Source of the DNA: Nocardioidaceae bacterium
Lineage (GTDB): Bacteria > Actinomycetota > Actinomycetes > Propionibacteriales > Nocardioidaceae
NCBI GenBank assembly: GCA_030447865.1
Contig: JAUJOD010000001.1
Coordinates: 544,909-608,908, forward strand
Length of the DNA stretch: 64,000 nucleotides
Reading direction: 5' to 3'
How positions within the stretch are numbered: the stretch's first letter is position 1; each line of letters starts with the position of its first letter. Positions 6,535-63,136 of the stretch are shown here, one piece after another. The position numbers were made by a program, and so were the translations under genes. Under the pieces are notes generated by a model, which was not told the DNA's origin, searched no databases, and saw only the letters and a list, made by a program, of their open reading frames with translations.

Positions 6535-8160
6535 GTGACCACCACCAGCCGGACGCGCACCCTGCTCGGGGCAGCAGCCGGCCTGCTTTCGGCTGCTGCA
6601 GGAGTCGGCGCGTCACTGGTGGTGTCCGCCTTCGTTCGCGGCGCGCCAACCCCCATCACTGCCGTCGGTTCTCGAGTCATCGATGCCACCCCCGCCGCCG
6701 TCAAGGACTGGGCGATCCGCACGCTCGGCACCAACGACAAGCTCTTCCTGCTGACTGGCATCTTCATCGTGCTGGCCCTGCTTGCATGCGCCACTGGCAT
6801 CGTTGCCTGGCGCAGCCGCCCCTTGGCGCTCGGCATCACCGCAGCACTCGGGCTGGTCGGGCTGGCAGCGGCGTACGCCGACCGCACCCAGCTTGCTGGT
6901 CCCGGCAGGCTGGCTCCCGCTCTCGCAGCGCTGGTCGTCAGCGTCGGCATGCTCGCTTGGTTCACCGCCGGCTGGGGCGGGGCGCCGGCACGCACCGGCG
7001 ATGACGACCTGACCCGTCCGGCCGAACTGGCCAACCACCCCATGGCCGATCACCCCATGGCCCAGTCCGGCGCGCGAGCCGAGAACCCCGCCCCGGCCGG
7101 GTTCGACCGCCGCGCCTTCCTCGCCGCGGCCGTGGTCAGCGGCGCGGTGGCGACCACCGGCTTCGGCGCCGCGCGGCTGTTCGACGACGCCGGCACTCGT
7201 TCGCGAAGCGCGACCAAGCTGCCCCCGCCCACCAGCGCAGCGGCTCCCCTCGCCGCGGGTGCGTCGCTGTCGGTGGCCGGCATCACGCCGTACCTCACCG
7301 CCAACAAGGACTTCTACCGGATCGACACCGCGCTGACGGTGCCGCAGGTACCGGCCGCCAAGTGGACGCTGAAGATCCACGGACTGGTCGACAACGAGAT
7401 CGAACTGACCTTCGCAGACCTGCTCGACATGCCGCTGATCGAGCGCCGCGTCACGCTGACGTGCGTGTCCAACGAGGTCGGCGGCGAGTACATCGGCAAC
7501 GCCACGTGGCTGGGTGTGCGGATCGCCGACCTGCTGGAGCAGGTGGGCGTCAGCCCCGACGCCGACGCTGTCAAGTCCACTGCTGTCGACGGCTTCACCG
7601 TTGGTACGCCGCTCGCTGCGCTCACCGACGGCCGAGACGCCATGATCGCGATCGGCATGAACGGTGAGCCGCTCCCCCTCGACCACGGCTTCCCGGCCCG
7701 GATGGTGGTGCCCGGTCTCTACGGCTACGTGTCGGCGACCAAGTGGCTCGTCGACATGGAGGTCACCCGATTCGAGGACTTCACCGCCTACTGGACCGAC
7801 CGCGGCTGGGCCGCCGAGGCGCCGATCAAGACCATGAGCCGGATCGACGTGCCCGCGGGGTTCGCCGAGGTCCAGGCCGGCAAGGTGGCGGTGGCCGGCG
7901 TCGCCTGGGCGCAGCACACCGGTATCAAGGCCGTGGAGGTGCGCGTCAACGACGGCGACTGGCAGCCCGCTCGACTCGCCACCGAGGACACGGTCGACAC
8001 GTGGCGGCAGTGGGTCTACGCGTGGGACGCGACGCCAGGCTCACACACCCTGCAGGTCAGAGCTACTGACACCACCGGTTACACCCAAACGGGCCGGCAG
8101 GTCCCACCTGCACCCGACGGGGCCACCGGCTGGCACAGCGTCGAAGTGGCGGTCGCCTGA
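6535..8160 (+). CDS. Membrane-anchored molybdopterin-dependent oxidoreductase
   Basis: A 541-residue protein starting at a GTG. Four or five hydrophobic segments occupy residues 1-150. A linker with FDRRAFLAAAVVSGAVATTGFG (twin-Arg-like and hydrophobic) is followed by an extracytoplasmic sulfite-oxidase-fold domain. The cofactor-binding Cys is C310 in TLTCVSNEVGG, and a C-terminal dimerisation domain (about 440-541) begins near the ETMSRIDVP-like region. These enzymes reduce or oxidise S- or N-oxides; the substrate is unknown. The stop overlaps a possible start of the sigma factor gene downstream (TGATG at 8158), so the enzyme, sigma and anti-sigma genes form one cluster. Confidence 0.88.
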   Translation: MTTTSRTRTLLGAAAGLLSAAAGVGASLVVSAFVRGAPTPITAVGSRVIDATPAAVKDWAIRTLGTNDKLFLLTGIFIVLALLACATGIVAWRSRPLALGITAALGLVGLAAAYADRTQLAGPGRLAPALAALVVSVGMLAWFTAGWGGAPARTGDDDLTRPAELANHPMADHPMAQSGARAENPAPAGFDRRAFLAAAVVSGAVATTGFGAARLFDDAGTRSRSATKLPPPTSAAAPLAAGASLSVAGITPYLTANKDFYRIDTALTVPQVPAAKWTLKIHGLVDNEIELTFADLLDMPLIERRVTLTCVSNEVGGEYIGNATWLGVRIADLLEQVGVSPDADAVKSTAVDGFTVGTPLAALTDGRDAMIAIGMNGEPLPLDHGFPARMVVPGLYGYVSATKWLVDMEVTRFEDFTAYWTDRGWAAEAPIKTMSRIDVPAGFAEVQAGKVAVAGVAWAQHTGIKAVEVRVNDGDWQPARLATEDTVDTWRQWVYAWDATPGSHTLQVRATDTTGYTQTGRQVPPAPDGATGWHSVEVAVA

Positions 8161-51577: not shown

Positions 51578-51754
51578 CGTGCGCGAGGGGGGAGTTGAAC
51601 CAGAGCGATCTGACGCTGCGTTTCACTGTTTTCGCAGGTCAAAGCGGGTTTCGCCGCTCCCGTTGCCTCCCGTTGAACACCCTTTCCAGGTGGGGTGTGC
51701 TACACGAGGTAGCACCAGCGAGATCTTGAGTTGAGTACGGCGGAGTCCCGCCGG
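51578..51754. repeat. Flanking direct repeat A
   Basis: This sequence aligns to 54698-54873 with a constant offset of 3120 and a single gap near the end; over 150 compared bases about 137 match. It has long identical runs around GGAGTTGAAC, TTCGCAGGTC, GCGGGTTTCGCCGCTCC and CGTTGCCTCCCGTTGAACAC. It bounds one side of the metallopeptidase/deaminase module. It does not fold into a tRNA. Confidence 0.8.
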
Positions 51755-51859: not shown

Positions 51860-53748
51860 TCAGCCCAAAAGTTCGCTCTCCGGATCATCCCGGACGCGTG
51901 AAAATTGAGGACCGGTGGGGTACTCGTACTTCTCGTTGCTTGCTGATCCCGGACTCGTCGTCCACAGAACGAGTTGAGCGATCCGTTCCCCTGGCGTCAA
52001 CGCGATGGGGACTGTGCTCAAATTCACGAGTTCAAAGTTAAACATCCGTGAAGGTTTGGGTGCACTTGCACCGCGGTGGCAGACAGGAGGCCGAGACGTC
52101 CATAACTCGACCTCGTGAGCACCTGCGCCGTCAGATCAGCCGGAATTACCAGGTACTCCAAGGTAGCACCCAGCACGAGCTCGCCAGGGTGGAGCATATA
52201 CTTCTCGTCCCAGGCCATCTCATAGGCAATTTGCATGGAACGGGGATCCTGTTTGCGATTCAACGGATCAAACGCACTCGTGCTGCTTCGGCGGAAAGCT
52301 ATAAAGTGTCGCCCCACGCGCAGGTCCAATCCTGCGCCACGTGGCAGGTGCACCAGCGGCGTAGCTACAATCGCGTGCTCGTCGGTTCTTTGTAGGCGAC
52401 CGAGCAGATCGGCAGCGGATAGCGCACCGCCCGAAGCGGGCGGTATACCGGCGGGATTACCGGACGCATCAAGGCCGTTCGGTCTGGTCGCACCTCTCTT
52501 ATGCCAGCGATCGATAAACGTGATGGAGTCGATCGCCTTTTTCCCCAACTTGTCGTAAGGCGTTTTGGCGTCCTCCCTGCGGGCGATCCACGCCGCGTTG
52601 ATGACGTCGGAGTCGACAGGCCGTGCCGAGGATGCGTCGGCCAATTGGATGACGTCGGTCCCAGGTACCCCAGCGTGCAACCGATCCGCAATCTCGCCGA
52701 TCGCGGCAACGCGCTCAGCGAATGGATACGCTCCTGTGCCCATGCCATGCGACACACTCTCCAAGTCCGCAACGTGCGAGCTGAACAAGGCCGAGAGATA
52801 GTCAGCCCACGCCTCTGATCTGGGTGTTGTTCTTGAAAGCACATCTACCCAGGGAGCGAGCGTTCCGCTTAGGCGCGAGTCAATGACAATGCCTAGAGAA
52901 TCAAGAAGCAGCTTGATTCGAAGATTTCCGGGTGGATGCGTTGTGTTGAGGTCGTCCATCGCCCCAATCACCGTGAAGTACTCTGCCAGAGCGCAGACCG
53001 CAGAGGGGCCAAACCTACTGAGGGCATAGAAGTCGCACAACAGTTCCGTTGCCCAGGACATTGCAATCTGATAGAGGCCCCTCGCTATTTGTCGGGAATC
53101 GTTAGTCCCGCGTGCTTGAGGATTATGAAAAGTGCCGGCGCTGGAAAAGTCGAACTTCTGCCGCAAATCATATTGATCCAACAGTGAATGCTCGGCAACA
53201 GCTATGTGAGCAACTTCGTGACCTAGGAGTATCGGGCTCCACACAATGCCGTTTCCTTCGATGCGCGGTACCTGAAATAGCGCGAACTTTTCAGGGGGTA
53301 CCGTTTTGCCGCCATAACGGTAGACTACGCGGCTAACGTCACCATAGGTTGTCAGAAAGTTGTCCACTTTGCCGTGGGACAGGACAACACCATAGTCACT
53401 AACGCTAAGCCCCTGCAGCTCCTCGCGTAGTTGCTCGAGAAGTGCGTGTGAGAGCTCTGGGCGAGTACCGTGCGACAGGTGAAGATCAACAAATCCTGCT
53501 ACCGCAACCGTTCCGCGAAGGAACCCGGAGAGGATCTGATACAACGCATCGTCATCGACACTGTTTTGCACCTCGTATTCGAGCGCAGAGCGCAACTCAT
53601 CCGGATACTTTCCAAACAGCTCCAGTATCCTTCGATGATCAGCCCGCTTGGTAGAGAGTGCTCCGAGCAACCGATTGACGGTTTCCTCGAGCACTTCTGC
53701 TCTTGCCAGCAGAGCCTTCTCCAGTGCCTGGTTGAGCTGGTTGGCCAT
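51860..53748 (-). CDS. HEXXH metallopeptidase-like protein fused to dCTP-deaminase-like domain (frameshifted near the 3' end)
   Basis: From ATG 53748 one frame gives 574 residues to TGA 52024. Residues 1-160 are helical. A metallopeptidase-like site follows: GHEVAHIA (H177, E178, H181) and ATELLCDFYAL (candidate third ligand E235). From about 465 to the end is a dCTP-deaminase/dUTPase fold: GAGLDLRVGRHFIAFRR, LHPGELVLGATLEYLVIPADL, RSSYGRLGLL and NLHGCLT. The frame then stops, but the next frame runs on as FELVNLSTVPIALTPGERIAQLVLW to TGA 51860. One missing T near 52037 explains this. The repaired protein has about 629 residues and regains the catalytic Glu of deaminases (FEL). The fusion is not a family I know. 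Confidence 0.75.
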
Positions 53749-53760
53749 CGCGTTACGCCC

Positions 53761-54231
53761 TCAGAGCGCTACTGTGTGCTCGCCTACCCTGCCTGTTTCT
53801 CTCAGCGCCGAATCTGAGAGGGAGCGCAAGATCTCTATCAATCGATCCGTCGCTGCGGAGGAATCACCCTCACGGGCCGCTCGGAGCTGAGATGCAACCC
53901 GCTCGAGGAAGTCTGCGAAGTCCCCCGTCCCACTGACGTCTTGAATGGTGTCGATCGCCGCGTCGACTTGAGATGCGAGCGCACTAGTCGGTTGCCGACC
54001 TGATGTCCCGTGGGTTGCGAAGAACTCGACCGCATGGGCCGCTTGCACCATGAGGCTGGCTAGGGACTCCAACGTGGAGAGGTCCCGTGAGTCGAGGTTG
54101 TGCCCCTGCTGTACCCGCCGCAGGGAGGCAGTCGCTCGGGAGGACAACACAGCTAGGTCGACGAAGCCGGCATCGTTCCCCAAGAGGTCGTGAGACGAAG
54201 CACCGCTGTTTGATCCCTTATTTGCAGTCAC
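53761..54231 (-). CDS. Hypothetical partner of the metallopeptidase/deaminase protein
   Basis: A 156-residue, mainly helical protein (SSRATASLRRVQQGHNLDSRDLSTLESLASLMVQAAHAVEFF, and ADFLERVASQLRAAREGDSSAATDRLIEILRSLSDSALRETG). It lies 12 bases upstream of the large fusion gene on the same strand, so both are one transcript. GTG 54231 has AAAGGGG 5 bases before it; a longer frame has no site. No motif is recognised. The pairing suggests a dedicated partner, sensor or inhibitor; that is inference. Confidence 0.55.
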   Translation of the reverse strand: MTANKGSNSGASSHDLLGNDAGFVDLAVLSSRATASLRRVQQGHNLDSRDLSTLESLASLMVQAAHAVEFFATHGTSGRQPTSALASQVDAAIDTIQDVSGTGDFADFLERVASQLRAAREGDSSAATDRLIEILRSLSDSALRETGRVGEHTVAL

Positions 54232-54246
54232 GATAACCCCTTTGAG

Positions 54247-54262
54247 TCGAACGTATGTTCGA
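54247..54262. promoter_or_regulatory. Inverted repeat in the divergent promoter
   Basis: TCGAAC-GTAT-GTTCGA lies between the divergent partner gene and the winged-helix gene, 16 bases before the partner start. A related CTTCGAATCC stands 23 bases before the winged-helix ATG. The winged-helix protein is the likely ligand; binding is inferred. Confidence 0.5.
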
Positions 54263-54354
54263 AGTGTCTCATCTGCCACCTCCACATGCAATGACCCTAC
54301 TCGTTACGATCTAATTCCAAATGCTAACTTCGAATCCAGAAGGAGCGTGTCGCG

Positions 54355-54636
54355 ATGGAGGTCGAGGACTTCTCGGATCAGCTCTTCGGCCGCTACCGCG
54401 CTCTCCGTATCTACAGCGTCATCGCCTCGATGTCAGACAAGTTCACAACCGCCGAGGTGGCTCGTCTGAGCGACGCCGCGGGCCCAGACTGCTCGAAGGA
54501 ACTCCGCAGGCTGGTCGATCTAGGGGTACTTCGCACCGTCGACCGTCGCGGAGCCTACGAGCGCCCCGCGTCCCAGTTCTGGATCGCGATGGGGATGCTC
54601 GCGGAGTACGCGGAGGATGAGCGCCGCGTGCGTTAG
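54355..54636 (+). CDS. Small winged-helix regulator
   Basis: A 93-residue protein. FGRYRALRIYSVIASMSDKFTTAEVARLSDAAGPDCSKELRRLVDLGVLRTVDRRGAYERPASQFW is a winged helix (recognition helix DCSKELRRLVDLG, then a basic wing). GAAGGAG stands before the ATG. It is divergent from the two-gene module and probably controls it through the inverted repeat between them. Confidence 0.7.
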   Translation: MEVEDFSDQLFGRYRALRIYSVIASMSDKFTTAEVARLSDAAGPDCSKELRRLVDLGVLRTVDRRGAYERPASQFWIAMGMLAEYAEDERRVR

Positions 54637-54697: not shown

Positions 54698-54873
54698 CGT
54701 GCGCGAGGCAGGAGTTGAACCAGAGCGACCTGACGTTCCGTTTCAACGTTTTCGCAGGTCAGAGCGGGTTTCGCCGCTCCCGTTGCCTCCCGTTGAACAC
54801 CGTCTCCAGGTGGGGCGTGCTACACGAGGTAGCACCAGCGCGATGTTGAGTTGATCTCGGCGAAGCCCGCCGG
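54698..54873. repeat. Flanking direct repeat B
   Basis: The second copy of the repeat at 51578-51754, in the same orientation, 3120 bases away. The two copies lie on either side of the metallopeptidase/deaminase module, like the ends of an inserted or transferable unit. The rest of 54637-55078 holds no gene. Confidence 0.8.
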
Positions 54874-55078: not shown

Positions 55079-56557
55079 GTGCACGTGATCACAGGCGACT
55101 TGAAGGCCAAGGTTGACCGCATCTGGGACTCGTTCTGGTCCGGCGGCATCAGCAACCCGCTCGAGGTCATCGAACAGATCACCTACCTGCTCTTCCTGCG
55201 CCGTCTCGACGACCTGCAGACCCTCGCCGAGAAGAAGGCTCGCCTCACCGGCGGGGTGATCGAGGACACCAAGTTCCTGCCAGGGCAGGAGCACCTGCGG
55301 TGGAGCAGGTTCAAGAACCTCGACGCCGACCTTATGTACACGACCGTCGCCACCGAGGTGTTCCCCTTCCTCCAACGGTACGGCGAACAGGTCGGCGGCG
55401 ACGACTCGACGTACTCCGACCACATGAGGGACGCGCGCTTCACGATCCCGACCGCTGCCCTGCTGTCCAAGGTCGTCGACATGCTCGACGACATCCCCAT
55501 GAACGACCGGGACACCAACGGGGACCTGTATGAGTACCTGCTGTCCAAGATCGCCTCGGCCGGGGTCAACGGACAGTTTCGGACGCCGCGGCACATCATC
55601 AAGCTGATGGTGGACATGGTCGCCCCAGAGCCGACCGACGAGATCTGCGACCCGGCCTGTGGGACCGCGGGCTTCCTGGTGGCAGCCAGCGAGAACATCC
55701 GCGAGACGCACCCGACCGCGCTGACCGACGCTACACAGCGCCAGCACTTCCATCGCTCGATGTTCCACGGCTACGACTTCGACTCCACCATGCTCCGCAT
55801 CGGCAGCATGAACATGCTCCTGCACGGCATCGAGGCGCCCGACATCCGCTACCGGGACTCGTTGTCCGAAGGAGCGAGTGCGGTCGCCGAGAAGTACACA
55901 TTGGTTCTCGCCAACCCTCCCTTCGCCGGCTCCCTCGACTACGAAGCGACGTCCAAGGACCTGCAGCGCGTCGTGAAGACCAAGAAGACCGAGCTGCTCT
56001 TCCTTGCGCTGTTCCTCAAGCTCCTCAAGCCCGGGGGCCGAGCCGCGGTCATCGTTCCCGACGGCGTGCTGTTCGGTTCGTCCAACGCGCACAAGTCGCT
56101 GCGCAAGACGTTGATCGAGGACCAGAAGCTCGACGCCGTCGTCAAGCTGCCTTCAGGTGTCTTCCGGCCGTATGCCGGGGTCTCCACCGCGATTCTGTTC
56201 TTTACCAAGACCAACTCCGGCGGCACGGACGAGGTTTGGTTCTACGACGTTCGGGCGGACGGGTTCTCGCTGGACGACAAGCGCAACCCGGTCGAGGTCA
56301 ACGACCTCCCCGATGTGCTGGCTCGCTGGGCCTTGCGGACGACAACCGAACGGCACCGTCCCCGCACCGACCAGTCCTTCTCCGTGTCCAAAGCCGACAT
56401 CGTCGCCCAGGGATACGACCTCTCCCTGAACCGCTACAAGGAGATCGTCCACGACGAGGGCGAACACCGCCCTCCGTCAGAGATCATCGCTGACATCGAG
56501 CAGTTGGAGGACGAGATCGCCAAGGGCCTGGCCGAGCTGAAGGCAATGCTCTCGTGA
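55079..56557 (+). CDS. hsdM: Type I restriction-modification methyltransferase subunit HsdM
   Basis: A 492-residue adenine-N6 methyltransferase. The N-terminal helical domain ([36 protein letters not shown]) binds HsdS. The SAM motif is [13 protein letters not shown] (from about 191), and the catalytic motif is NPPF (about 279). [19 protein letters not shown] and a C-terminal coiled region ([20 protein letters not shown]) complete it. It protects host DNA with HsdS. GTG 55079; its stop overlaps hsdS by GTGA. Confidence 0.96.
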
Positions 56558-57690
56558 GGACGGCCCGGCTGAGCGATGTCGCGAAGCTCGACTACGGGTT
56601 CGCTTTCGATTCGAAGCGGTTCAACAAAGAGGGTCGCGGCTTGCCACTCGTGCGCATTCGTGACGTTGTCCCCGGCCGCTCCGACACGTACTACTCCGGG
56701 GAGTACACCGATCGCTACCTCGTGGAGGACGGCGACTTCTTGATCGGCATGGACGGTCAGTTCAACCTGGCGTGCTGGCAAGGAGGCAAGGCGCTACTCA
56801 ACCAGCGAGTCTGCCGTATCGGCGCCCTCGACGACTCGCTCGACCGTGCCTACCTTGCTCGGTTCATGCCCGCCGCACTCAAAGCCATTGAAGACTCGAC
56901 ACCATTCGTTACGGTGAAGCATCTCTCCGCTGGGGTCTTGGGCGGCGTTCGAGTACCCCTTCCCCCCCTACCCGAGCAGCGCCGCATCGCCGCGATCCTC
57001 GACCACGCCGACGCCCTCCGCACCAAGCGCCGCCAAGTCCTCGCCCACCTCGACGCCCTCACCCAGTCGATCTTCCACGAAATGTTCGGCGACACGCCTC
57101 CGGACGCGACAGTGGGCGACATCGCCGAAATCCAGGGTGGCCTTCAGGTGTCGGCTAAGCGCAGCTCACTCCCAGTTGAAGTGCCCTATCTCAGAGTTGC
57201 GAATGCACACCGGGGCCGGGTGGACCTGAGCGAGGTCAAGACCTTGCGCGCGACCGAAGCTGAGGTCGTGCGTACTCGGCTCGTACCTGGGGATCTGCTT
57301 TTCGTGGAAGGCCACGCGAATCCTATGGAGGTTGGGCGCGTTGCAATGTGGAGTGACGAGATCCCGAAGTGCGTTCACCAAAATCACCTGATCCGGGGCC
57401 GAGTCAACCAGTCTCGCGTGTTGCCGGTCTTTGCCGCCACGTGGCTAAATACCTACGCTGGTGCGGCCCACTTCCGACGGGCAGGTAACACAACCTCAGG
57501 CCTCAATACGATCAGCGCCTCCGTCGTGCGCAGCGCTCCGATTCCGTTGCCGTCGCTAGGGCTTCAGCACCAATTCGTAGCTCGGGCACAGCACGTAGCG
57601 GCCCGACGGACCTCCGTGCGGCGCGCCCTAGCTGCCAACGACGAGCTCTTCGCCTCCCTCCAGTCCCGCGCCTTTCGAGGGGAGCTGTGA
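56554..57690 (+). CDS. hsdS: Type I restriction-modification specificity subunit HsdS
   Basis: A 378-residue protein with two target-recognition domains (about 1-140 and 185-340). Each ends in a conserved spacer helix: LPPLPEQRRIAAILDHADALRTKRRQVLAHLDALTQSIFHEMFG between them, and PIPLPSLGLQHQFVARAQHVAARRTSVRRALAANDELFASLQSRAF at the end. It defines the bipartite DNA target for HsdM and HsdR; the target cannot be predicted from sequence alone. Confidence 0.94.
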   Translation: MRTARLSDVAKLDYGFAFDSKRFNKEGRGLPLVRIRDVVPGRSDTYYSGEYTDRYLVEDGDFLIGMDGQFNLACWQGGKALLNQRVCRIGALDDSLDRAYLARFMPAALKAIEDSTPFVTVKHLSAGVLGGVRVPLPPLPEQRRIAAILDHADALRTKRRQVLAHLDALTQSIFHEMFGDTPPDATVGDIAEIQGGLQVSAKRSSLPVEVPYLRVANAHRGRVDLSEVKTLRATEAEVVRTRLVPGDLLFVEGHANPMEVGRVAMWSDEIPKCVHQNHLIRGRVNQSRVLPVFAATWLNTYAGAAHFRRAGNTTSGLNTISASVVRSAPIPLPSLGLQHQFVARAQHVAARRTSVRRALAANDELFASLQSRAFRGEL

Positions 57691-57693
57691 CCG

Positions 57694-58782
57694 ATGCCAG
57701 TTGAGATGAGGATGTGGCGCATCGATGGCGACCAGCCCCGGCCGCTGACAGCCGCGGTGCTTCCTGCCGAGAAGGATCTCCACCAGTTCCTCGCCCAAGA
57801 CGCTTCGTTGCTTGGTGAGCGGCTCTTGGTCGTCGGGAGTGAAGTGCTGACGCCGTACGGCAAGCGCATTGACCTGCTGGCGATCGATGCCGACGGCAAC
57901 CTACACCTGCTGGAGCTCAAACGCGACAAGACCCCGCGTGAGGTAGTCGCCCAAGCGCTCGACTATGGCTCATGGGTCTCGACCCTGTCGCGCGACCACG
58001 TCATCGACATCGCGACTGGGCATCTCGACGAGCGGTTCGAGGTCGCATTTGAGCGCGTATTCGACAGTCCACCGCCCGACGAGTTGAACGGCGAATTGCA
58101 CCTCACCATCGTGGCGGCCGAGCTGGACGGCAGCTCAGAGCGCATCGTCACCTACTTGCGTGGCTTCGGCGTGCCCGTCAATGCGGTCTTCTTCTCGTAC
58201 CTGGAGGACGAAGGGCGGCGCTACCTCGCGCGGAGTTGGCTGGTCGACGATCAGGTGGTCTCCACCGCGCCGGGTTCGAAGAAGAGCAAGCGCGCGCAGT
58301 GGAACGGTCAGGACTGGTACGTCAACTTCGGCACCCACGGCCGCGACTGGCAAGACGGTCTAGAGGTCGGATTCGTCTCAGCCGGCGGATCGCCGCGTTC
58401 GTCAAGGACGTTGCGCACCATCCCCGTGGGCGACCGTGTCAACGTCTACGTTCCGGGGAGTGGCTATGTCGGGGTGGGGGTGACTCTCGCGGAGGCCAAG
58501 CGGTTCGATTCCGCGCTCATTCAGCGTGACGGCCAATGGGCGCCTCTCGCCAGACAGGAGCTACGTGGAAGCTACCGGCATGCCGCACCCGAGAAGGTGG
58601 AGACAGACGACTTCGCCGAGTGGGTGCTCCCCGTCAAGTGGCTGACCGCCGTTCCCCTGGATGCGGCGTTTAGCGAGCCAGGCCTCTTCTCGAACCCCGG
58701 CACGTCGTGCAAGCTGCGCCAGGAGTTCACGCTGGAACGACTGGCTGCTCACTTCGATCTCGACAAGGACGGCGAGGACTGA
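57694..58782 (+). CDS. NucS/DUF91-like nuclease domain protein
   Basis: A 362-residue protein starting 3 bases after the hsdS stop. The N-terminal part holds a PD-(D/E)XK core: GKRIDLLAIDADGNLHLLELKRDKTPREVVAQALDYGSW (D near 53, then ELK). That is the form seen in NucS/DUF91-type nucleases. A central domain (IVAAELDGSSERIVTYLRGFGVPVNAVFF) and a C-terminal domain with HAAPEKVETDDFAEWVLPVKWLTAVPLDAAF follow. Its position within a type I operon suggests an accessory nuclease or DNA-end binder for the system. Confidence 0.78.
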   Translation: MPVEMRMWRIDGDQPRPLTAAVLPAEKDLHQFLAQDASLLGERLLVVGSEVLTPYGKRIDLLAIDADGNLHLLELKRDKTPREVVAQALDYGSWVSTLSRDHVIDIATGHLDERFEVAFERVFDSPPPDELNGELHLTIVAAELDGSSERIVTYLRGFGVPVNAVFFSYLEDEGRRYLARSWLVDDQVVSTAPGSKKSKRAQWNGQDWYVNFGTHGRDWQDGLEVGFVSAGGSPRSSRTLRTIPVGDRVNVYVPGSGYVGVGVTLAEAKRFDSALIQRDGQWAPLARQELRGSYRHAAPEKVETDDFAEWVLPVKWLTAVPLDAAFSEPGLFSNPGTSCKLRQEFTLERLAAHFDLDKDGED

Positions 58783-58889
58783 TGAGCAACTTCGACTTCA
58801 CGAAGACCAAGCCCGCCGATCTGCGCCTGGCTGCTCGCGCGGCACGCTGCGCCCTGGTGATGAGTTCCATTCGCTATCGGTCTGAGTGA
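58782..58889 (+). pseudogene. Leftover copy of the hsdR start
   Basis: ATG 58782 overlaps the nuclease stop. MSNFDFTKTKPADLRLAARAARCALVMSSIRYRSE is 35 residues, then TGA. The first 19 bases match those at 59759-59777, the true hsdR start. The ORF looks like the first part of hsdR cut short, as if hsdR once followed the nuclease gene directly and the toxin-antitoxin pair was inserted behind a duplicated start. Confidence 0.6.
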
Positions 58890-58968
58890 CCAACTTTCAA
58901 GCGGCGATAGCACGGCCGGGTTCTGCAGGCCCATATCGACAGCGATAACAGTTGGTTACGCTGTGTTC

Positions 58969-59412
58969 ATGGACATCCGAGCGGAGCGGCGGGCCGCTAG
59001 TCTGAGCCAGTCACAGCTGGCTAGGGCTGCAGGAGTCCCGCAGCCAAACCTGTCGGCGTACGAGAACGGTCGCCGGGTGCCCTCTCCAGAGGTACTGGAA
59101 CGGATCAACCGCGCGCTCAGGGGACGACCCTCCGCGCGGGTCAATCAGCACCGAGACTCGATCCGGGCCCTGGTGGCTAAGCATCACGCCGTCGCGCCCC
59201 GGATCTTCGGGTCCGTCGCGCGAGGGGACGACGAGCCCGGGTCTGACATCGACCTGCTCGTCGATTTCACCGACGAAGCGTCACTGCTTGACGAGATCGG
59301 CCTTCGGCTGGCACTTTCCGACCTCCTCCAGGTCGAGGTCGACGTGGTAGGTGCAGACAGTCTCAAGGGCCAGGTACGTGAGCGGGTCCTGCGAGAAGCG
59401 GTGGCGGTGTGA
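58969..59412 (+). CDS. mntA: HTH-MntA fusion antitoxin (nucleotidyltransferase)
   Basis: A 147-residue protein. An XRE-type HTH (LSQSQLARAAGVPQPNLSAYENGRRVPSPEVLERI) is fused to a MNT nucleotidyltransferase domain with GSVARGDDEPGSDIDLLVDF (about residues 81-97, the GS-N9-DxD metal site). MntA-type antitoxins AMPylate a tyrosine of the HepT toxin to silence it. ATG 58969 is preferred over a GTG six bases upstream. It overlaps hepT by GTGA. Confidence 0.9.
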   Translation: MDIRAERRAASLSQSQLARAAGVPQPNLSAYENGRRVPSPEVLERINRALRGRPSARVNQHRDSIRALVAKHHAVAPRIFGSVARGDDEPGSDIDLLVDFTDEASLLDEIGLRLALSDLLQVEVDVVGADSLKGQVRERVLREAVAV

Positions 59413-59762
59413 CGGAGTCGCAACGGAAGGCACTCGACGCGGCCGAGCGCGTTGTCGCCGTTTGCGACGTCCTTGTGGGCTTGGTTCCGTCCGACGTCGA
59501 CGCCTTTGCGGCCGACTTACGCACGCAGTGGGCCGTCGAGATGGGTCTCATCCGCATCGGCGAGGGCGTCAACCGAATCCCCGACGAGGTGCTCGAGCTC
59601 TTTTCCGAGCAGCCCTGGCGGCAGATCATCGCCATGCGCAACTTCGCCGCCCACCAGTACGACGACCTCGACCCCCGGCGAGTGTGGCGCACGGTCACCC
59701 GCGACGTTCCCCGCCTGCGCGCCTACCTCGTCGAAACAGTCATCCCGGGGCTCGAACGATGA
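59409..59762 (+). CDS. hepT: HepT-like HEPN toxin
   Basis: A 117-residue HEPN-domain protein. The RNase motif is RNFAAHQY (R77, H82, Y84), the R-X4-H-X-Y that HepT uses both as catalytic site and as the AMPylated tyrosine. LRTQWAVEMGLIRIGEGVNRIP and PWRQIIAMRNFAAHQYDDLD are the HEPN helices. It should cut RNA unless MntA modifies it. The stop overlaps the ATG of hsdR by ATGA. Confidence 0.92.
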   Translation: MTESQRKALDAAERVVAVCDVLVGLVPSDVDAFAADLRTQWAVEMGLIRIGEGVNRIPDEVLELFSEQPWRQIIAMRNFAAHQYDDLDPRRVWRTVTRDVPRLRAYLVETVIPGLER

Positions 59763-62700
59763 GCAACTTCGACTTCATCCAGAAGACTCTGCCGGCGGTC
59801 CACGCCGACTGCGTGCGTGCGGAGTCCTACGTCTCCAGCGACCCCGCGGCCGCGTGCTTCTACAGCCGGCGAGCGATCGAGCAGCTCGTGAGGCACCTGT
59901 ACGACGTGATGGGTTTGCCCGCGCCGTACCAGAACGACCTCGCCGCTCGACTCAACGACTCGGCGTTCAAGGCGAAGGTCGGAGTCGGGATCACCTCGAA
60001 GCTGAACCTCATCCGACGGGTCGGGAACACCGCTGCCCACGAAGGTAGGCCGATCCAAGCGCAGACGGCGCTCCAGGTGCTGCGCGAGCTCTTCCACGTC
60101 GTGGTGTTCGCCGCCTTCCGGTACTCCACCGACCCGCGAGGTGTGCCGACCAGCAAGCAGTTCGACCCGTCGCTGGCCGCGAAACGCGCACCGTTGTCGC
60201 GACCCGAACTCGTCGCTCTTGCAGCGAAGTTCCGGGCCCAAGACGCTGCGCACGCCAAGGCGCTGGCGGACAGGGACGAGCTGGCAGCGGCCAAGGACGC
60301 CCAGATCGCCGCACTCAAACTGCAGATCGCCACTGCTCAGGCGGAGAACACCGAGCAGGACCACCACGACTACTCGGAAGCCGAGACCCGCCGCCTGATC
60401 ATCGACGTCCTGTTGGCCGAGGCCGACTGGCCGTTGGACCAGCACCGGGACCGGGAGTACCCGGTCTCGGGCATGCCGAACGCTGCCGGCACGGGGTTCG
60501 TCGACTACGTGCTTTGGGGTGCCGATGGCCGCCCGCTCGCGGTGGTCGAGGCCAAACGTACGACTACGAGCCCGCAGGTCGGGCAGCAGCAGGCGAGGCT
60601 GTACGCCGACTGCCTCGAAGCGGAGTTCGGGCGTCGGCCGGTGATCTTCTACACCAACGGCTACCAGTACTGGGTCTGGGACGACGCCGCGTTCAGCGCT
60701 TCCGGGCGGGGCGGCTACGCGGCGCGAGAGGTCCAGGGCTTCTACACCCGCGACGAGCTGGAGCTGCTGATCCAGCGGCGGGAGACCCGGCTGCCGCTCG
60801 CCGGGGCGCCGGTGGACGCAGCGATCGTCGAGCGCTACTACCAGACCAGGGCGATCAAGGCGGTGGGTGCCGCGTTCGACGGCCGGCAGCGCGAGGCGCT
60901 CCTGGTGATGGCCACCGGGTCGGGCAAGACCCGCACCGTCATCGCGCTGGTCGACCAGCTGATGAAGGCCAACTGGGTCAAGCGGGTGCTCTTCCTCGCC
61001 GACCGGACCGCTCTGGTCAACCAGGCCGTCGGTGCGTTCAAGACCCATCTGCCGGGCGTCACCACCGTCAACCTGGTGACCGAGAAGGCGACGGACGGGC
61101 GGGTGTACGCGTCGACGTACCCCACGATCCTGAATCTCGTCAACGAGGTGGAGGGCGGCCAACGCAGGTTCGGACCCGGCTACTTCGACCTCATCGTGAT
61201 CGACGAGGCCCACCGCTCGGTTTACCAGAAGTACGGCGCAATCTTCGACTGGTTCGACTCCTACCTCGTGGGTCTCACCGCGACCCCGAAGGACGAGGTC
61301 GACCACAACACCTACCGGCTCTTCCACCTCGAGGACGGCGTCCCCACCGACGCCTACGGGTTGGACGAGGCGGTGGACGACGGGTTCCTCGTGCCGCCGT
61401 TCGGGGTGTCGGTCGGCACCAAGTTCCTCCGCCAGGGCATCACCTACGCCGACCTGAGCGAGGAGGAGAAGGACGAGTGGGACGCCCTGGACTGGGGCGA
61501 GGACGGTCCGCCGGACGCGATCGACTCCGAAGAGCTCAACCGGTTCCTGTTCAACGAGGACACCGTCGACAAGGTGCTCGCCAGCCTGATGACGGACGGC
61601 TACAAGGTCGCCGGCGGCGACCGGATCGGCAAGACGATCATCTTCGCCAAGAACCAGGCGCACGCCGAGTTCATCGAGCAGCGGTTCAACATCCAGTACC
61701 CCGAGTACGGCGGCGAGCTCGCCCGGGTGATCACCCACCACGCGACGTACGCCCAGAGCCTCATCGATGCTTTCAAGCAACCAGACAAGGCGCCGCACAT
61801 CGCGATCAGCGTCGACATGCTCGACACTGGCATCGACGTGCCCGAGGTCCTCAACCTGGTGTTCTTCAAGATGGTCCGTTCGAAGTCGAAGTTCTGGCAG
61901 ATGATCGGCCGGGGCACCCGCCTGCGCCCGGACCTGTTCGGACCCGGGGAGGACAAGAAGGACTTCTTCGTCTTCGACTCCTGCGGCAACCTCGACTACT
62001 TCAGCCAGGATCTCCCCGGCTCCGAGGGGTCGCTGCAGAGGTCACTCACTCAACGGCTGTTCGAATCGCGGCTCGGACTGGTCGTCGCTCTCGACGACGC
62101 CAGCGCGGCGCCGGAGCTGCGGGAGTCGGCAGCGACGTGGCTGCACGAATTCGTGGCCGGGATGAACCTCGACAACGTCCTCGTCCGCGCGCACCGTCGC
62201 CAGGTTGAGACCTGGACCGACCGCAAGCGGTGGGCTTCGGTGTCCAAGGACGACGCGGGAGAGATCCTCGAGCACCTGGCTGGCCTGCCGTCCGCCGTAC
62301 AAGACCCGGACGAGGACGCCAAACGCTTCGACCTGCTGGTGCTGCGCCGCCAGCTCGCGCAGCTCGACGGGGATGCGGTCACAGCCGAACGGGTCCGCGA
62401 GACCGTGCAGGCCATCGCCGCCGCGCTGTTGTCGAAGCGAACCATCCCATCGGTCGCCGAACAGCTCCCGCTGCTCGACGACGTGGCCGGCGACGAGTGG
62501 TGGGTCGACGTCACGCTCCCGGTGCTCGAAGTCATGCGGCTGCGGCTGCGCGAGCTGGTCCGCTTCGTGGAGAAGACATGGCAGAGCCCGATCTACACCG
62601 ACTTCGAGGACACCCTTGACGACGCCATCCCGGTCGACCTGCCCCAGGTGACCTCCGGGATGAACTGGGAACGGTTCCGCGCGAAAGCGCAGGCGTACCT

Positions 62701-63136
62701 CAAACAGTACGAGAACCACGTCGCCCTGCAGAAGCTGCGCCGCAACAAGCCGCTCACCAACGACGACCTCGACTCACTCGCCGAGATGCTCATCGCTTCC
62801 GGAGGCGACCAGCAGGTCGACATTGCCTGGGTCACCGAACGCGCCGGGGCGCTCGGCCCGTTCATCCGCTCCCTCGTCGGCCTCGACCGCGTCGCCGCGA
62901 CCGAAGCGTTCGCCGCGTACCTAGACGAGACGAAGTTCTCCGTCGAACAGGTGCGGTTCGTCTCCTTGATCGTCGACGAGCTCACCACCAACGGAGCCAT
63001 GGAACCCGCGCGGTTGTTCGAGTCGCCCTATACCGACCATGGCCACGTCGACGTCATCTTCCCGCAGGACGTCGAGGTCATCGTTGAGATCCTTCGCGAT
63101 GTCAATCGCAACGCCCTGCCAGCCGGCGCCGCGTGA
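59759..63136 (+). CDS. hsdR: Type I restriction enzyme endonuclease subunit HsdR
   Basis: A 1125-residue protein. Residues 1-120 are a DUF4145 domain (MSNFDFIQKTLPAVHADCVRAESYVSSDPAAACFYSRRAIEQL). The PD-(D/E)XK nuclease has D249 and E264 with K266 (FVDYVLWGADGRPLAVVEAKR). The SF2 motor has Walker A ATGSGKT (385-391), DEAH at 482-485, and motif VI in QMIGRGTRLRPDL. A long C-terminal helical domain binds HsdM. ATP-driven translocation precedes cleavage of unmodified DNA. Its ATG overlaps the hepT stop. Confidence 0.96.
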   Translation: MSNFDFIQKTLPAVHADCVRAESYVSSDPAAACFYSRRAIEQLVRHLYDVMGLPAPYQNDLAARLNDSAFKAKVGVGITSKLNLIRRVGNTAAHEGRPIQAQTALQVLRELFHVVVFAAFRYSTDPRGVPTSKQFDPSLAAKRAPLSRPELVALAAKFRAQDAAHAKALADRDELAAAKDAQIAALKLQIATAQAENTEQDHHDYSEAETRRLIIDVLLAEADWPLDQHRDREYPVSGMPNAAGTGFVDYVLWGADGRPLAVVEAKRTTTSPQVGQQQARLYADCLEAEFGRRPVIFYTNGYQYWVWDDAAFSASGRGGYAAREVQGFYTRDELELLIQRRETRLPLAGAPVDAAIVERYYQTRAIKAVGAAFDGRQREALLVMATGSGKTRTVIALVDQLMKANWVKRVLFLADRTALVNQAVGAFKTHLPGVTTVNLVTEKATDGRVYASTYPTILNLVNEVEGGQRRFGPGYFDLIVIDEAHRSVYQKYGAIFDWFDSYLVGLTATPKDEVDHNTYRLFHLEDGVPTDAYGLDEAVDDGFLVPPFGVSVGTKFLRQGITYADLSEEEKDEWDALDWGEDGPPDAIDSEELNRFLFNEDTVDKVLASLMTDGYKVAGGDRIGKTIIFAKNQAHAEFIEQRFNIQYPEYGGELARVITHHATYAQSLIDAFKQPDKAPHIAISVDMLDTGIDVPEVLNLVFFKMVRSKSKFWQMIGRGTRLRPDLFGPGEDKKDFFVFDSCGNLDYFSQDLPGSEGSLQRSLTQRLFESRLGLVVALDDASAAPELRESAATWLHEFVAGMNLDNVLVRAHRRQVETWTDRKRWASVSKDDAGEILEHLAGLPSAVQDPDEDAKRFDLLVLRRQLAQLDGDAVTAERVRETVQAIAAALLSKRTIPSVAEQLPLLDDVAGDEWWVDVTLPVLEVMRLRLRELVRFVEKTWQSPIYTDFEDTLDDAIPVDLPQVTSGMNWERFRAKAQAYLKQYENHVALQKLRRNKPLTNDDLDSLAEMLIASGGDQQVDIAWVTERAGALGPFIRSLVGLDRVAATEAFAAYLDETKFSVEQVRFVSLIVDELTTNGAMEPARLFESPYTDHGHVDVIFPQDVEVIVEILRDVNRNALPAGAA

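Follow-up and report, generated by a model that had tools for sequence, protein, structure and literature searches.

What does a protein do that joins a metallopeptidase-like half to a half resembling dCTP deaminases (DCDs), and is this pairing part of a conserved unit? The question arises from a locus within the window, a stretch of 64,000 nucleotides from a Nocardioidaceae bacterium, in which a sequence-only reading had noticed the fusion together with a partner of 156 residues and a divergent winged-helix gene. The zinc-binding residues were found exactly as claimed there (H177-E178-VA-H181 and E235), and the features of the locus are collected in Table 1. Our answer is a tentative one, held at somewhat less than even confidence: the locus would encode an SOS-induced stress or abortive-infection module in which a peptidase effector is gated by nucleotide binding to an altered DCD domain and restrained by the partner.

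Table 1. Features of the module and its surroundings; positions are those of the window.
Feature	Position	Strand	Remark
Fusion gene, main frame, 574 aa	52024..53748	-	N-terminal helical region, M48-like peptidase domain, DCD start
C-terminal end of DCD, second frame	51860..52045	-	DCD/dUTPase profile resumes at position 127
Helical partner, 156 aa	53761..54231	-	12 bp upstream of fusion
Divergent winged-helix regulator gene, 93 aa	54355..54636	+	
Left direct repeat, 171 bp	51578..51748	+	
Right direct repeat	54698..54868	+	89% identical to left repeat
HEVAH zinc-binding motif, H177-H181	53206..53220	-	HE.AH in 8/8 homologs
Third metal ligand E235, within W..E..CD	53044..53046	-	8/8 homologs
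DCD active-site motif RSSYGRLG	52090..52113	-	
Perfect LexA/SOS box TCGAACGTATGTTCGA	54247..54262		30 nt upstream of partner start
Type I restriction-modification operon: hsdM, hsdS, PADLOC PDC-S11 gene, hsdR	55079-63136		right of module

The bracketing by direct repeats described earlier could be verified. The two copies enclose the fusion, partner and winged-helix genes and are the only ones in the genome, and the restriction operon reported beside the module is of type I. No tRNA was called at the repeats of the window; one end of the repeat resembles a tRNA T-arm by eye, as in attachment-site remnants, and a distant counterpart is present in another genus of the family (L061, about 1440-1600; 81% over 78 bp). 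An Rfam search with the module and its repeats gave no convincing match (one sub-threshold miRNA match, E 0.61). The unit had also been characterized as lower in GC than its neighbours. This holds for the fusion (56.7%) and the partner (61.1%) in comparison to hsdM (63.6%), the upstream PBP gene (68.2%) and the window (67.9%), but not for the winged-helix gene (64.9%). Likewise, the inverted repeat announced before the winged-helix gene exists (8 nt, 54258-54265/54327-54334) but lies near the chance level, being reached in 7% of shuffles; it overlaps the LexA box.

The fusion of a metallopeptidase-like with a dCTP-deaminase-like domain proved to be one conserved protein, found in eight genomes, all of Actinomycetota (the window, G247, G476, G406 and L044-L047, the last four obtained by scanning public genomes), with the metal ligands kept in all of them. 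After the first full-length relative had been obtained, the N-terminal half alone served as query to avoid housekeeping DCDs; in every instance found, this half is fused to a DCD domain. The fusion is rare, with full-length matches in 2 of 396 genomes of a phylum sample, 3 real matches among 395 genomes of a class sample, and 1 of 66 and 1 of 395 genomes in two further classes. No relatives were obtained from genome contigs by a single-sequence scan, from viral contigs by profile scans, or from plasmids and phages by tblastn with the N-terminal half. The whole fusion, searched against plasmids and phages, gave DCD-domain matches only, among the matches listed. A candidate in G492 (E 8.9e-6 over 73 positions) was rejected: it disappeared with a better profile and lies opposite an aldolase gene.

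Seven of the eight fusions are intact, and the window copy is the broken one. Its frame stops after ...HGCLTL, just ahead of the position of the catalytic Glu in DCDs, and we regard it as frame-broken because a separate open reading frame on the same strand encodes the remainder of the DCD domain. Programmed frameshifting was considered and rejected, since this position lies within one uninterrupted frame in the seven relatives and inspection by eye showed no canonical slippery heptamer; the break is more likely to stem from a recent mutation or an assembly error. If the break is real, the window copy would have no active DCD.

Conserved motifs and profile comparisons characterize the N-terminal half as a putative zinc peptidase. 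All eight fusions share the motifs GHE[VL]AH, W..E[LV].CD, GP and HPP..R, and residues 174-281 match the Pfam peptidase M48 family weakly (E 0.02, 15.2 bits against a gathering cut-off of 20.3), with two of the eight members listed at all. When the profile was compared by hhalign with three M48 peptidases of the host genome, the score was 41.5; none of 100 column shuffles exceeded 22.1, the reversed profile scored 14.0, and the alignment places HEXXH and THPP..R in register. In the predicted model of this half, with pLDDT mostly 75-95, HEXXH and the Glu are located in two long helices (in the L046 model HEXXH corresponds to residues 185-189 and the Glu to E243). The structural matches include Ste24p (4il3, Z 7.3, rmsd 6.3, 191 aligned residues), with values in the middling range for helical models; a sequence search of the PDB with the N-terminal profile returned nothing meaningful. 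Since the M48 matches stay below the Pfam cut-off, motifs and profiles are the basis for proposing peptidase activity. M48 peptidases (HtpX/Ste24) are largely membrane proteins. They share with the fusion HEXXH, the Glu ligand followed by D, and HPP..R in the same order; unlike them, the fusion is joined to a DCD domain.

The second half is clearly of the DCD type. The Pfam DCD profile matches all eight fusions (best E 5.3e-34), the domain forming the last ~120 residues of the 574-codon frame in the window (E 9.6e-18), and the best solved match is the DCD-dUTPase of M. tuberculosis (2qxx, E 6.6e-33), that of B. halodurans also being among the best. With the dCTP deaminases and DCD-dUTPases (TIGR02274; PDB 2qxx, 1xs1) it shares the fold, RSS.GRLG, the catalytic Glu and the C-terminal strap; the Glu and the RSS.GR motif are kept in all seven intact copies and the strap KY..PTGPEFSK is conserved among the fusion DCDs. 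It differs from them by the attached peptidase-like domain, by its position in a separate clade and by the motif-III Asp, which occurs in 28 of 28 ordinary DCDs and in none of the eight fusions. There it is replaced by His, Asn or Glu, and the loop TAG..D.G of ordinary DCDs reads TA[VT]..[HNE]P. As this Asp contacts the sugar or the catalytic water in DCDs, we infer that the fusion has probably changed its ligand or lost a hydrolase step. The known DCDs form trimers, need no zinc and have no relationship to the zinc-dependent dCMP deaminases (PMC12088426).

The alteration of the pocket in all eight copies also bears on the idea of a deaminase effector with a protease as off-switch, which the sequence-only reading had put forward and which thereby becomes one of several readings. 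The DCD domain would drain dCTP and raise dUTP during infection, the peptidase would mature or destroy it, and the partner would keep it off. Such a role is consistent with the conserved catalytic Glu, RSS.GRLG and strap, and PMC12088426 cites dCTP deamination as an established means of phage defence. The fusions have, however, lost the Asp of ordinary DCDs, and their base-binding loop differs. AvcD and the DCD of Tal et al. 2022, nucleotide-depleting anti-phage deaminases, are zinc-dependent enzymes of the CDA fold; they resemble the fusion in having a cytosine-nucleotide deaminase as possible weapon, but the fusion has the dUTPase/DCD fold. Because the folds are unrelated and none of the eight members matches a PADLOC 2023 family, the earlier analogy to these enzymes found no support, and we consider a deaminase effector rather unlikely. 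With the catalytic Glu kept, the domain could nevertheless be a plain enzyme instead of the sensor assumed in the nucleotide-gated peptidase that we prefer. It is probably not the housekeeping enzyme, since a dUTPase and a DCD-like protein with two domains in tandem, in a 443-codon open frame, are encoded elsewhere in the host genome (loci G000:C3:163118-164188 and G000:C2:290846-291106).

The partner is obligate: in all eight loci a helical protein of 156-216 residues is encoded directly upstream of the fusion, with a gap of -4 to 25 bp. A profile built from four partners recovered three of the other four loci among 1304 frames, and the reverse profile recovered all four of the first group, likewise from 1304 frames. 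These cross-group matches were the best non-training ones (weakest E 0.0043); the L044 partner was missed by the profile of the other subgroup. The partner is modelled as a five-helix bundle, for which fold comparison gave generic helical-bundle matches only (e.g. FliS, Z 8.1), and it carries an invariant Gly-Glu pair near the C-terminus. Adjacent and co-conserved, the two genes are reminiscent of a toxin-antitoxin pair, with a fusion that is large for a toxin.

The regulator is less constant. Its divergent winged-helix gene was confirmed, and relatives of it occur in half of the loci (window, L046, G476 and G406); the best matches of the window gene are weak AbiEi/PDC-M05A models. L044 carries an HTH_3 gene in its place, and in L045, L047 and G247 no winged-helix relative was found. 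Just upstream of the winged-helix gene of L046 we observed a perfect 11-nt inverted repeat (CAATTACTAGA/TCTAGTAATTG, 7417-7439), reached by 0 of 2000 shuffles, which is likely the operator of that regulator.

Another control element, absent from the sequence-only reading, is the LexA box. Perfect CGAAC-N4-GTTCG sites are located upstream of the partner in the window (-30 nt), L046 (-36 nt), G247 (-71 nt) and G476 (-92 nt). They are the only perfect ones in the 159,420 bases of the eight loci, and shuffling of the 64-kb window gave 0.17 perfect boxes on average. As these boxes precede the partner in four of eight loci and fit the LexA consensus of Streptomyces venezuelae, tCGAAC-N4-GNNCGa (PMC9380542), the DNA suggests that at least half of the copies are likely under LexA control. 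Such a switch would also fit a function in DNA repair or in mobile elements without defence. In the first case the fusion would be an enzyme serving DNA-damage tolerance or the nucleotide pool, its partner acting like a chaperone; it would be a repair accessory induced by SOS and not a conflict system. The LexA boxes agree with this, as do the supply of dTTP synthesis by DCD enzymes and the metabolic gene surroundings of two copies. It gives no reason for a peptidase, though, the host already possesses its dUTPase and tandem DCD-like protein, and the patchy distribution across classes and the RM, BovA and integrase neighbours argue against it as well, which makes a repair role very unlikely in our view.

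The surroundings of the copies bear on mobility and on defence. In a tree with 28 ordinary DCDs the DCD domains of the eight fusions fall into a single clade (support 100/100), in which the window copy pairs with L046 from the Acidimicrobiaceae, another class (97/83); the module thus moves horizontally. The window copy adjoins the type I RM operon, and L046 is accompanied by a C5 methylase, Vsr, a SacI-like endonuclease and PDC-S11. A tyrosine integrase and an HTH_17 excisionase-like gene lie near G476, and BovA-like and PbeA-like genes, a helicase and, by eye, a MobF-type relaxase gene near G247. Judged by eye, L045 and L047 are situated among metabolic genes, so that the linkage to defence islands, found for several copies in defence or mobile contexts, is partial. 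Taken together, the cross-class clade, the repeats, the rarity and the integrase, BovA and RM neighbours are the pattern of a mobile accessory module, for which a defence role is plausible. Genes of the candidate defence family PDC-S11 were seen near both sister copies (window 57694-58782, in the type I RM operon; L046 5959-6657, beside a type II RM cassette). In G247 the BovA-like CHAT gene extends across two adjacent frames (L031 6405-8503), possibly another broken or two-gene defence system.

The mobile contexts raise a further alternative. HEXXH peptidases act in mobile-element control, DNA-damage response and phage exclusion (ImmA/ImmR, IrrE/DdrO, CapP/CapH, Lit), Lit standing for phage exclusion and CapP for the control of defence. 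By analogy to ImmA/ImmR or IrrE/DdrO, the module could be an SOS regulatory switch of mobile elements, in which DNA damage would lead the peptidase to cut either the regulator or the partner. Genes or element transfer would be switched on in this way, and phages would not be affected directly. HTH genes adjoining a HEXXH peptidase, including the HTH_3 gene of L044, would suit this idea, and so would the LexA boxes and mobile contexts. Yet only four of the eight loci have this regulator, the others lacking it or carrying another type, while the partner is present in all, and between the repeats of the window no further gene is left to be regulated; we therefore judge a pure switch unlikely. The four known systems also belong to other peptidase families, and neither a DCD domain nor an obligate helical partner of this kind is known from them.

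In accordance with the sequence-only reading, no described system with the same pairing was found, neither in PADLOC 2023 nor in the openly accessible papers searched. Papers mentioning a 'DCD domain' were set aside as dealing with a different domain. It is the architecture that appears to be undescribed; both component folds are already known. The trimeric dUTPase fold serves as a nucleotide-gated signal for repressors in the SaPI phage dUTPase-Stl system (PMC5593958), where a separate phage enzyme binds the repressor, whereas in the module the domain shares one protein with the putative peptidase.

For the preferred peptidase module the following course of events can be proposed. LexA, together with the module's own winged-helix protein in half of the copies, would keep expression of the partner-fusion operon low; induction would follow once RecA is activated by DNA damage, whether from phage attack or another source. 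The fusion would then assemble, probably through its DCD domain, which is trimeric in relatives, and the altered pocket would bind, perhaps still deaminate, a nucleotide. Nucleotide binding and the helical partner would jointly gate the M48-like zinc peptidase, which as effector might cut a host protein, a phage protein or the partner itself. In this scheme we infer peptidase activity, nucleotide gating, partner inhibition and the defence role alike. The occurrence of LexA box and winged-helix gene in four of eight loci each, and the metabolic surroundings of L045 and L047, count against it. The narrower version, an immune module in which a nucleotide sensor of dUTPase fold turns on the fused zinc peptidase during phage-induced DNA damage, with the partner as a check, appears doubtful to us. 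If the scheme is true, it would bring together, for the first time, LexA control, a dCTP-deaminase fold repurposed to sense nucleotide pools, and an effector that is a peptidase. One could then test directly whether dNTP pools are read by bacteria as the trigger of a response based on a protease, with eight natural copies, seven of them intact, as starting material.

Within the type I RM operon beside the module, two further genes were noticed by eye. An XRE-type HTH joined to a nucleotidyltransferase-like (MNT) domain (58963-59412) is followed by a DUF86/HEPN-like protein (59409-59762), and the two apparently form a toxin-antitoxin pair located before hsdR.
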